Source of the DNA: Clostridia bacterium
Lineage (GTDB): Bacteria; Bacillota; Clostridia; Oscillospirales; CAG-272
DNA: 42,780 bases
Direction: 5' to 3'
Assembly: GCA_017505745.1 (NCBI GenBank)
Contig: JAFVOP010000035.1
Coordinates: 1-42,780, forward strand
A model generated the notes under the pieces. That model worked only from the letters and a program-made list of their open reading frames with translations. It searched no databases and had not been told where the DNA came from. Below are positions 13,446 to 42,145 of this stretch, one piece after another. Made by a program: the position numbers and the translations under genes. Every line of letters begins with the position of its first letter. The first letter of the stretch is position 1.

Positions 13446-13544
13446 CCACCCGCATAGCGGGTGGTCAGATCACCGACAAAGTCTATCTCGTGTATGAGAT
13501 AGACTTTGTCAGTGATCTGAAGCCAGACTCTGACGAGTCTGGCT
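13446..13544. repeat. Three-hairpin element, copy 1
   Basis: Three adjacent hairpins occupy 99 bp. A: CCACCCG/CGGGTGG (13446-13464). B: a 25-bp stem, 13465-13489 with 13496-13520, one mismatch, 6-nt loop. C: AGCCAGACTC/GAGTCTGGCT, a perfect 10-bp stem (13521-13544). Hairpins A and B match copy 2 at 37461-37534 in their basal sequence (TCAGATnACnGACAAAG and its complement) but have different, still self-complementary tips. It lies downstream of the MFS gene, where hairpin C could also act as a terminator. Confidence 0.8.
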
Positions 13545-13582
13545 TCTTTCTATTCGCTCATAGTTCGTGCAAATACACATCC

Positions 13583-14896
13583 TCAAACTTTCTCTTTCTT
13601 ATGGAAGTCCTCGTCTCTTTGCCGCACACGCGCAGGCTTTTTCAGCTTTGGCAGGAAGAAAAGCGCCAACCAAGAAAGCATCGCGGCACTGACGATGAAT
13701 AGGATCTGTTGCGGATACACCGAAAATCCCAGCAACTTGTTCCCGTTTTTTTCCACCGCCTCCACCAAAAAAGAGGCCAGAACCGTAAATACGAAGCCAA
13801 CCACCCCACTGATGGCGTTTTGAATACCAAGAACGTAGCGACGGTCCTCGTGGGCGATGTAATCCAGGCACAAATTGGTTCGTCCCGCATTGCTTCCGCC
13901 CAAGGAAAAGGCATAGCAAAGCGAAAATATCGGGTACAGATAGGCAACGGTTTTGGGGGTGCAGATCGCAAATACCAGGTATCCGGCCGCCAGCACCAGC
14001 ATGCAAATGCGAAGCATATACGCCCAGGAGCACCGATCGGCAAGATCTCCCAAAAAACGAGAAACCACCGCGCGAAAAGCGGCGTGTAATACCGCGATCG
14101 CGGTAATATAGGTATAGGACATTCCAAAGGTGCGGGTCAGATACACGCTGTAAAAAAAGATCGATACGTTTGTGACGGAAAACAGCGCGTCAAAGAGAAG
14201 AACACGGCGCAGCGTACGACTGCCAAACACCGCGCGTCGGATCTCGCCAAAGGTTTTTCGGGGCGGTATCCGTTCGGGCACGGGTTCCTTAATCATCCAC
14301 ATAATGATCAAATGCAACACCGAAAGCACAGTGATCGTAACAGCAAAGATCAAAAAGCAGATCTGCATCTCGCCTTTGGCCTTGAAATGATCCAACAGGA
14401 TCCCTGCCCCCTGCGAAAAGAGCATTCCGCCGATCAGGGACACGATCTCCTTGTTCGCCGTAAACACTCCACGGTGATTATCGTCCACCAGGGACATATG
14501 CCAATTGGTGCGCGAGGGTGTGAGATAATGCTGGCAAGCATAAGCCACCGCCAGAAGCACGATAAAGGAGCCAATCTTCAAGGCCTTGGAAAAATCGGTC
14601 ATCGGGATCAGATACAGGACCCCGAACATCAGCTGACTGATCAAATTCAGCCAACATACCCATCTCTTGCAAGGGTAGGTCCGCTTCACTCCAAACACGG
14701 CCGCCAACTGTAAGCAGCAAGCCAGGGACGTGATGGCTGAGATGATCCCTTGCAAGGAGGACGAAACCTCCATCTCATTCAAGATCGCCGTGAGAAAGGT
14801 CGTCGTCACACAAATATGAATAAAATATTCCACTGCCGCCTCCACAATATAGCAGAGACGGCTTTTTTGATACGCATCGCATTCGGTTGATTTCAT
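13583..14896 (-). CDS. MFS family transporter
   Basis: 437 aa with about 12 hydrophobic segments and the loop between helices 2 and 3. There are no soluble domains. The central loop (MIKEPVPERIPPRKTFGEI) separates two six-helix halves; this is the standard MFS layout. It is similar in type to sugar or peptide permeases, but no substrate motif is recognised. The ATG is preceded by GGAGG. It is divergent from a LacI-type regulator (15057), with two palindromes in between, so transport of a regulated carbon source is the simplest guess. Confidence 0.82.
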   Translation of the reverse strand: MKSTECDAYQKSRLCYIVEAAVEYFIHICVTTTFLTAILNEMEVSSSLQGIISAITSLACCLQLAAVFGVKRTYPCKRWVCWLNLISQLMFGVLYLIPMTDFSKALKIGSFIVLLAVAYACQHYLTPSRTNWHMSLVDDNHRGVFTANKEIVSLIGGMLFSQGAGILLDHFKAKGEMQICFLIFAVTITVLSVLHLIIMWMIKEPVPERIPPRKTFGEIRRAVFGSRTLRRVLLFDALFSVTNVSIFFYSVYLTRTFGMSYTYITAIAVLHAAFRAVVSRFLGDLADRCSWAYMLRICMLVLAAGYLVFAICTPKTVAYLYPIFSLCYAFSLGGSNAGRTNLCLDYIAHEDRRYVLGIQNAISGVVGFVFTVLASFLVEAVEKNGNKLLGFSVYPQQILFIVSAAMLSWLALFFLPKLKKPARVRQRDEDFHKKEKV

Positions 14897-19531: not shown

Positions 19532-19598
19532 CCCGTCACCTGCTCCAACAGAAAAGCCGCCCTTTTTGGGCGGCTTTTCTGTTGGAGCAGGTGACGGG
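19532..19598. repeat. 31-bp perfect inverted repeat containing the tRNA-Gly 3' end
   Basis: Positions 19532-19562 and 19568-19598 are exact reverse complements around TTTTT. The right arm holds the tRNA 3' acceptor strand, CCA and half of the T stem; the left arm is an inverted copy of them. On the minus strand the inner part is also the GC-rich terminator of the tRNA gene. Confidence 0.9.
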
Positions 19599-19656
19599 AA
19601 TCGAACCCGCGTATTCGGCTTGGGAAGCGGACACTCTGCCATTGAGTTACACCTGC
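19583..19656 (-). tRNA. tRNA-Gly (anticodon CCC)
   Basis: On the minus strand the sequence folds as a full cloverleaf of 74 nt with encoded CCA: acceptor GCAGGTG/CACCTGC (7 bp), D stem ACTC/GAGT, anticodon stem TCCGC/GCCGA (one C-C mismatch), anticodon loop TTCCCAA giving anticodon CCC, and T arm GCGGG-TTCGATT-CCCGT. Read as Gly because the body resembles Gly tRNAs with discriminator T. It decodes GGG. A consensus promoter is at 19684-19712, and the downstream hairpin ends transcription. Confidence 0.93.
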
Positions 19657-36384: not shown

Positions 36385-36660
36385 GATTCAAGTCCAAAAG
36401 GTCATAGAAAAGGTACAATGGTGAAAAGGGGGGTTACCCCTAAAAACACAAAAAGCCCTTGAAATTCAAGGACTTTTGTGTTAGGTTGCAAAATTGTTGC
36501 ACCGTTATGGCTAGCCGGCATCAAACCAAGCGAAAGGCTACGAATGCCTTGGTCATTCGTAGCCTTTTCACGCTTCGTGCGAGCAGGGTGTCATAGGCAA
36601 GTACAGTAGGGGAAAAGATCCAAAACAAAACCCGAGGCTATCGCCTCGGGTTTTGTTTTG
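36385..36660. repeat. Hairpin-rich cassette repeat, copy i
   Basis: Order from left: GATTCAAGTCC (36385-36395), shared AAAGGTnCAAnGGTGAAA-type segment, shared stem AACACAAAAAGCCCTTGAA with its partner (36445-36482), GGCTAGCC, a 14-bp hairpin (36533-36546 with 36554-36567), and a perfect 18-bp hairpin (36621-36638 with 36643-36660). The first third is clearly homologous to copies ii and iii; the rest is diverged. It fills most of the 36288-36702 gap; no ORF. Confidence 0.75.
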
Positions 36661-37206: not shown

Positions 37207-37460
37207 TAAAAGGTGCAATTGTGAAAGAGGAGATTTTTACCCCTAAAAACACGAAAAGCCATTGAAATTCAAGGGCTTTTGTGTTGGAGTGGAAATTTGT
37301 TTCCCAATTATAGCTAGCAGGACTCGAACTCAGCTAAACTTCGAGCCGCAAGCGGCTCTCGTCGAATGAATTCCTTCAGAATTCATTCCCCTGTTCCTCC
37401 CTTCGCTCGGAGCAGTCTGTTGCTACGCCTCAAGCCTAACAAAAGGAGCCAAAACAAAAA
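37207..37460. repeat. Hairpin-rich cassette repeat, copy ii
   Basis: Near identical to copy iii over most of its length. Contents: the CACAAAAG/CTTTTGTG-type stem (37249-37283), TAGCTAGCAGGACTCGAACT (T-loop-like GTTCGAGTCC on the minus strand), hairpin CGAGCCGC/GCGGCTCTCG, the perfect stem GAATGAATTC/GAATTCATTC (37364-37388), and a final GGAGCCAAAACA leading into the three-hairpin element at 37461. No ORF in 37114-37582. Confidence 0.8.
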
Positions 37461-37562
37461 CCACCCGATTGGGTGGTCAGATTACTGACAAAGGGCTCAG
37501 AACCGTAGTCCTGAACCCTTTGTCAGTAATCTGAGACTCCCACGCAATATTGCGTGGGAGTC
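37461..37562. repeat. Three-hairpin element, copy 2
   Basis: A: CCACCC/GGGTGG (37461-37476). B: 24-bp stem, 37477-37500 with 37511-37534, one mismatch, 10-nt loop. C: a perfect 28-bp palindrome (37535-37562). A and the base of B are shared with copy 1 at 13446. Relative to repeat copy iii, which goes straight from GGGTGG to TTTCTGTTTTGGCT, hairpins B and C look like an insertion of about 85 bp. Confidence 0.8.
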
Positions 37563-37582
37563 TGTTTGGCTTGGCTTCGGCA

Positions 37583-37705
37583 TTAAAAATCTGCCTCATG
37601 CCCATGGTCGTATTGGTTTTCCCAGGAGGTTCTTAAAACGTCTTCCTCGGGAAGCGCAATGTACTCTGCCTCAGGAGCGCGGTATTCTGCTTTTTTCATC
37701 ATCAT
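37583..37705 (-). CDS. 40-aa companion ORF of the secreted MBL gene
   Basis: Begins 14 bp after the MBL stop with a strong ribosome binding site (GGGGAGGGG) and three tandem ATG codons (37705, 37702, 37699). The peptide reads MMMKKAEYRAPEAEYIALPE then EDVLRTSWENQYDHGHEADF. It resembles the short 'KxYxxPxxExxxLxxEDVxxTS' peptides found near secreted proteins in Clostridia; I recall the pattern but not a function. Acidic, no signal peptide or membrane segment. Too short for most gene callers. Co-transcription with the MBL gene is likely. Confidence 0.7.
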   Translation of the reverse strand: MMMKKAEYRAPEAEYIALPEEDVLRTSWENQYDHGHEADF

Positions 37706-41717: not shown

Positions 41718-42025
41718 GGTTCAAGTCCATAAGGTTCTGGAAAAGGTGCAACGGTGAAATAGAGGTATTTTTATCCCTAAAAACACAAAAAGCCCTTGAA
41801 AATCAAGGACTTTTGTGTTGGAGTGGAAAATTGTTTCCCAATTATAGCTAGATGGGCTCGAACTCAGCTAAACTTCGAGCCGCAAGCGGCTCTCGTCGAA
41901 TGAATTCCTTCAGAATTCATTCCCCTGTTCCTCGCTTCGCTCGAAGCAGTCTGTTGCTACGCCTCAAGCCTAACAAAAGGAGCCAAAACAAAAACCACCC
42001 GATTGGGTGGTTTCTGTTTTGGCTC
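41718..42025. repeat. Hairpin-rich cassette repeat, copy iii
   Basis: Begins with GGTTCAAGTCC (41718-41728). Contains the CACAAAAAG/CTTTTGTG stem, TAGCTAGATGGGCTCGAACT, the same hairpin series as copy ii, and ends in a long stem (41979-41999 with 42004-42025, one mismatch). From about 41826 to 42010 it is almost identical to copy ii. It fills 41698-42145 together with a short AT-rich tail; no ORF. Confidence 0.8.
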
Positions 42026-42145
42026 CCCCCAACAATTTCGAACCTTTGACGATTCGGACGATTTTGGAGGGCTTTTTCTTAACAAATAGATTATAGCACA
42101 ATCAAGCAGCTAAGTCAATAGAATTTTGAAATGTTTAAAAAGAAT

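Follow-up and report, generated by a model that had tools for sequence, protein, structure and literature searches.

Two places in a 42,780-nucleotide stretch of DNA from a Clostridia bacterium (hereafter the window; contig JAFVOP010000035.1) fold into three successive hairpins, A, B and C, and they raise the question of what kind of element is repeated there. A preliminary description, made from the sequence alone, regarded both places as copies of a single dispersed unit that is selected for its fold in RNA or single-stranded DNA. We found that the three hairpins are different things: a transposon end remnant and two ordinary host terminator-like hairpins.

Two three-hairpin sites and their surroundings

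The three-hairpin fold was borne out at both sites, with z-scores of about -12 against shuffled sequence. Copy 1 has a minimum free energy of -72.7 kcal/mol, against -28.4 (sd 3.7) for its shuffles (z = -12.1), and copy 2 has one of -75.3 (z = -12.6). The features of the two sites are as follows.

13446..13464, minus strand: hairpin A of copy 1, a predicted terminator of leftward transcription (terminator scan: minus-strand stem 13464-13446, tail ATATTTATTT)
13465..13520, no strand assigned: B of copy 1, a 56-bp palindrome of right-end (RE) type, with arms that are an insertion sequence (IS) terminal repeat and a tip like the RE hairpin of the G155 IS
About 13519..13546, plus strand: hairpin C of copy 1, a predicted terminator of rightward transcription (terminator scan, tail TTTCTATTCG)
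13583-14896, minus strand: MFS transporter gene (MFS by Pfam) upstream of hairpin A of copy 1
37208..37477, no strand assigned: dispersed repeat of about 270 bp that has hairpin A of copy 2 as its last part and ends at the B boundary
37461..37476, minus strand: hairpin A of copy 2, the resident hairpin of the dispersed repeat (terminator scan 37478-37459, tail TTTGTTTTGG)
37477..37534, no strand assigned: B of copy 2, a 58-bp palindrome of left-end (LE) type, the reverse complement of which is identical to the B on G295:C7
About 37534..37563, plus strand: hairpin C of copy 2, called by the terminator scan for rightward transcription, with a weak T tract, GTTTGGCTTG
41741..42026, no strand assigned: paralogous site without B or C (repeat at 41741-42011 including hairpin A, then TTTCTGTTTTGGCTCC)

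The C-G to T-A change that had been noted between the copies is real and lies at position 7 of B. The stem of B folds on itself as described, though imperfectly, since copy 1 has a C.A mismatch at position 10 and copy 2 has two internal mismatches in its tip. The idea of one three-hairpin unit did not hold: B is the sole recurring part of the arrangement, and A and C are local, site-specific hairpins that have nothing in common across sites beyond their terminator-like character. In the source genome assembly (87% complete, 121 contigs), the arm of B, TCAGATNACNGACAAAG, has seven matches at up to two mismatches, and the four exact ones are the four arms of copies 1 and 2. Hairpins of the form CCACCC..GGGTGG occur at six places in this genome, two of them adjoining B, so hairpin A is a common terminator type outside the repeated unit and was rejected as a part of it. 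Hairpin C of copy 1 had no second match in the source genome at E up to 0.001, in a low-sensitivity search in which the copy 1 query did not recover copy 2, and hairpin C of copy 2 had none at E up to 1. Both A and C have the G+C-rich stem followed by a T run that marks an intrinsic terminator, the T run being weak in C of copy 2. They point in opposite ways, with the T run of A on the minus strand and that of C on the plus strand, an arrangement such as the splitting of one bidirectional terminator would give.

The dispersed repeat at copy 2 and its paralogue (37208-37477 and 41741-42011) are identical in 255 of 272 alignment columns, and their homology ends at the B boundary. The stem of hairpin A recurs in L147 and in L149, a related repeat copy on contig C82; the sequence past hairpin A at these two loci is absent to the right of the copy 2 B, as it might be after a deletion. 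A third place in the window, 36434-36535, matches the repeat only in part. Within the repeat is a stretch like a tRNA T-arm, which reads GCAGGACTCGAAC in the first copy; a terminator-like hairpin forms the end of the repeat. Between hairpin C of copy 2 and the gene of a large metallo-beta-lactamase-fold protein lies a 40-aa open reading frame on the minus strand (37583-37705), which ends just to the right of the hairpin. For copy 1, homologues of the neighboring MFS gene were present in 7 of 35 genus genomes, source included (E up to 1e-60); an empty site was not recovered, as the left-hand gene was not found in the flanks of the four nearest MFS loci, the flank at L128 being short. Elsewhere in the window, downstream of a tRNA (19586-19656, minus strand), 19532-19598 forms a perfect 31-bp inverted repeat with a 5-base loop, in which a terminator-like stem reaches into the tRNA 3' end, as if copied back inverted.

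Hairpin B and the ends of IS1182-family elements

The outer arms of B are conserved as sequence (TCAGA.....GACAAA), and they are the terminal repeat of an IS. Among 295 family genomes searched, eight had the arm, source genome counted, and the matches L016 and L017 from this search look like chance. In G155, G096, G117, G223 and G109 the arm lies 77 to 523 bases from a contig end (mostly 75 to 150). This is where the end of a mobile element with many copies would be expected to fall, and almost every such arm has a hairpin immediately in front of it. One G155 contig continues from the arm into an IS1182-family transposase (NCBIfam IS1182 NF033551, E 6e-59 over the N-terminal 227 aa; Pfam DUF772), with a score of 200 bits that stays below the 270-bit whole-protein cut-off because the contig ends. 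The left end of the IS reads TCAGATTACTGACAAAGGGTTCAGGAC....CCCTTTGTC, followed by a stretch that is promoter-like by eye and then by the transposase start. The right end reads TCAGATTACTGACAAAG, then TCTATCTC or CCTATCTC, and closes with GATAGGCTTTGT; in four of five cases at least six T in a row come next. Related ends with flanking hairpins occur in water-deer gut Clostridia, Bacilli, Desulfosporosinus, Sporomusa, two proteobacteria and other named genomes. The 87% complete source assembly yielded no IS1182 copy, and the window itself yielded no transposase, the best match having E 1.9.

The arms of B equal or nearly equal the terminal repeat of the IS that carries this transposase, and terminal repeats stand at both ends of B with 0 to 3 mismatches from arm to arm. 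The tip of B is a subterminal hairpin of an IS end, which is closed by a second, inverted terminal repeat. In copy 1 the tip is alike but unequal to the RE hairpin of the G155 IS (87-89% over 45 bases), and both arms read TCAGATC, where the nearest IS type has TCAGACC at its LE and TCAGATC at its RE. Read on the strand of G295:C7, the first 48 bases of the copy 2 B are the LE of the IS in G295. That genome holds left ends, right ends and four B elements, two of each type, and the tips of these and of copy 2 are equal to, or a few bases off, the subterminal hairpin of its left or right IS end. The tips of the two window copies therefore differ because one is of right-end and the other of left-end type, and not, as had been proposed, through selection for a fold. 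Judged by these matches, B is almost certainly a derivative of an IS1182-family end. Like a miniature inverted-repeat transposable element (MITE), B is short and geneless and bears the terminal inverted repeats of an autonomous IS; the flanking target-site duplication of a MITE is lacking, in that flanking hairpins matched at none of 14 B elements.

These 14 places, the two of the window included, are spread over 9 of 395 family genomes, which agrees with the earlier view that the element is dispersed; of the sampled genomes, the 20 others from the same genus had no such place. An order-wide search returned 3 of 394 genomes, namely the source genome, G096 and G612, the last with a different 35-bp form. 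Four of the 14 (L111, L117, L118, L120) have a terminal repeat that was not met in any IS, and for L112 and L116 only more distant IS1182 elements showed the arm (L082; L090). G612 also contains two MITE-like copies of about 240 bp that are 94% alike (L143, L144), with TCAGCTTGTAGACAAA at the start, a 35-bp B-like palindrome at one end and a closing TCTGA end. Spread by viruses was considered and rejected: viral contigs contained no match to the palindrome pattern. The single arm matched there at 22 loci, which look like chance; their flanks, when read, showed no abutting hairpin, a terminator-like hairpin lay near L068, and a search for a transposase start-codon pattern in the viral contigs found nothing.

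Further copies with other tips, such as the preliminary description anticipated, were thus found in related genomes, and some of their stem pairs differ on both sides. The pairing counts cover eight B elements out of the 14, together with eight IS ends; the left end of G223 (of other length) and the L079 ends were omitted. The outer 10 bp pair in 50/50 cells of LE-type and 29/30 of RE-type B, and in only 16/40 at left and 16/40 at right IS ends. The inner hairpin pairs in both (67/68 and 60/60 in IS ends; 85/85 in LE-type and 41/45 in RE-type B). Pairs altered on both sides number three outer and four inner in LE-type B and one of each in RE-type B. The strong folds and these double-sided changes speak for a structured RNA or single-stranded DNA element that is selected for its fold and dispersed as one unit. 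Against it, the outer arms are a terminal repeat that is unpaired in the IS, the inner hairpin is already present there, and A and C share only a terminator-like character across sites. Rfam at gathering score matched only the tRNA at 19586-19656 in the window and nothing at the element, and a structured RNA family was rejected. Selection for a fold is largely ruled out by the IS match, and we consider it extremely improbable. A mobile-DNA origin takes the place of the claimed new RNA fold. The case is also a warning: where copies of a palindromic IS remnant differ by compensatory changes, these can look like covariation in an RNA.

Hairpins beside insertion sequences and beside B

The IS ends show a clear choice of target. 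A hairpin with a net score of at least 6 lies within 2 bases of the boundary at 32 of 34 distinct ends (the exceptions being L012 and L019), compared with 60 of 2000 positions drawn at random from the same loci. Seven elements contribute both of their sides, 14 ends in all, so that about 27 sites are independent. Removed before this count were L016 and L017 (no flanking hairpin, taken as chance), L152, duplicate loci and the chance-like one-mismatch matches L158, L162, L163, L166, L168, L177 and L178; L052 was entered, although no terminal-repeat match was obtained for it. The removed L152 (G007:C77) has a single sequence like an IS right end next to a hairpin; the inner hairpin of this sequence is decayed, and it is possibly an old one-ended remnant. 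The 32 of 34 ends place these elements with those IS1182 members that target terminators or palindromes. PMC9208149 reports over-representation of IS1182 insertions between convergent genes, and PMC12056078 describes IS1182 transposition with or without target duplication or deletion.

The comparison of complete elements drew on 33 loci, of which 26 were entered and 12 had both ends readable; four were excluded for want of a right side (L078, L080, L083, L092) and ten for want of a recognizable or complete end pair. The same or a similar hairpin stood on both sides of 10 of the 12 (identity 0.80-1.00, six at 1.00), and the flanks were unequal in L086 (0.41) and L089 (0.59). Seven further reverse-complement hairpin pairs were seen by eye among contig-end copies of G155, G117, G109 and G295, and the remaining 20 of the 34 ends had no partner within the set. 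Together, the ten elements and the seven contig-end pairs indicate that duplication of the whole hairpin is usual on insertion.

The flanks of B differ from this. Hairpins with a net score of at least 6 lie to the left of 12 and to the right of 11 of the 14 B elements, and on both sides of ten; the hairpins of L117, L118 and L123 are weaker on at least one side, and the right side of L122 lacks one. The left and right hairpins of the same B are 0.37-0.63 identical, and hairpin pairs from different B sites average 0.48; a single cross-site pair at 0.95 belongs to G295 B elements with related neighborhoods. L143 and L144 were run in this comparison but stand outside the set of 14. The B elements L113, L119 and L122 and the IS end L165 (G295) lie beside stretches like tRNA 3' ends, followed by hairpins; ARAGORN found no tRNA in L113, L119 or L122. 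The L116 site has a relative in G236, one of ten other loci, where the same convergent gene pair is adjacent and has a single bidirectional hairpin between the genes. As G236 keeps the pair adjacent, the second hairpin of L116 did not arise by the joining of distant sites, and a second local terminator must be assumed there. Long-range rearrangement as a general cause of unequal hairpins is unsupported at this site.

Origin of the palindrome and comparison with known systems

Our preferred reading is that B is probably a solo palindromic remnant of an IS1182-family end, which lies at the foot of a terminator hairpin between the two host terminators A and C. How it came about we can propose only tentatively, by excision and survivorship. 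An IS1182-family element would insert at the foot of a terminator hairpin, and nearly the whole IS would later be deleted between short direct repeats that its subterminal hairpins create. CTTTGTC is shared by the LE hairpin and the RE terminus, and a deletion between the two would give an LE-type B; ACAAAG is shared by the LE terminus and the RE hairpin, and deletion there would give an RE-type B. We read B as an excision-type remnant because the outer 10 bp pair in B and not in the IS, while the inner hairpin pairs in both. Such a deletion would resemble the nearly precise excision of Tn10, which leaves a short terminal remnant. In remnants of the Tn10 type, direct repeats around a palindrome should delete cleanly. 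Where the hairpins flanking B were identical, a second, precise deletion would then leave no trace, and B would persist where the flanks of the IS were already unequal, for example after an IS-mediated adjacent deletion to a neighboring terminator. The absence of B with equal hairpins (0/14) is expected in this model, since such sites would vanish, and L086 and L089 have the unequal flanks that its precursors would need. The lack of an IS1182 copy in the source assembly and of a transposase in the window, the B elements for which no IS of the same repeat was met, and the adjacent gene pair of L116 in G236 count against it.

Instead, B may be a living MITE that is moved in trans by an IS1182 transposase to the T-tract side of a resident terminator, bringing or creating the second hairpin. 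Terminal repeats at both ends with few arm-to-arm mismatches, dispersal over nine genomes, the similar ends of the two MITE-like copies in G612, a published IS1182-derived example (MITEPye1, PMC11578231) and the two-hairpin site L116 against the single hairpin of its relative L140 all favor this. The joint occurrence of LE and RE types in one genome (1 + 1 in the window, 2 + 2 in G295), however, points to repeated birth and not to amplification of a single MITE. After insertion of an IS the hairpins of the two sides are mostly the same, whereas those of B did not match at any of the 14 places; in G295, comparison by eye found no hairpin shared between the six IS ends seen and the four B elements. 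We therefore hold a mobile MITE to be unlikely. A foldback of aborted transposition would account at once for single-end tips, palindromy and unequal flanking hairpins: the copying strand would enter an IS end from the target terminator, switch strand in the subterminal hairpin and copy back out through the terminal repeat and the flanking hairpin of the donor, leaving target hairpin, B and donor hairpin in a row. The arms of copy 1, both RE-like, and the foldback-like palindrome at a window terminator (19532-19598, into the tRNA) would fit. This course seems very unlikely to us; it requires a second template switch to rejoin the target. The predicted donor hairpins, that is C of either copy, were not found in the source genome, which weighs little since the copy 1 query (E up to 0.001) missed copy 2. 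It is distinctly unlikely, too, that single-end palindromes are the work of an IS1182 transposase guided by structure, and that they settle between two terminators and bring or recruit the second. If so, one bidirectional terminator would become a three-hairpin transcription barrier, and transposition would be a route for the duplication and exchange of bacterial terminators.

On the preferred reading of B as a solo end remnant, the remaining oddity is that such remnants have two non-matching flanking terminators. In the open-licence literature we found no description of IS1182 end palindromes that stand alone between terminators of unlike sequence; terminator-targeting IS1182 members and IS1182-derived MITEs are already published (PMC5678879, PMC4923244, PMC11578231). 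What is added here are IS1182 elements, from gut Clostridia and elsewhere, with the terminator hairpin retained on either side instead of deleted.

The elements described here share with IS1272 and TnSha1 a transposase of the IS1182 family, hairpin targets of any sequence and insertion at the foot or in the stem (PMC5678879, PMC4923244). IS1272 targets stem-loops, many of them terminators, and both IS1272 and TnSha1 replace or partly delete the target hairpin without duplication, unlike most complete elements here, which have it on both sides; the model in PMC5678879 includes duplication of the whole hairpin as an alternative outcome (pathway b). B resembles MITEPye1 of Paracoccus yeei in being short and intergenic, with IS1182-type terminal repeats and a long stem-loop and without a transposase, but MITEPye1 is flanked by 4-bp direct repeats (PMC11578231), whereas B has no matching flank hairpins and comes in two end-types. 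With the nearly precise excision of Tn10 (PMC12524634) it would share a deletion between short direct repeats near the ends in which a hairpin is involved; Tn10 belongs to another transposon family, and B keeps the subterminal hairpin and is a palindrome throughout.
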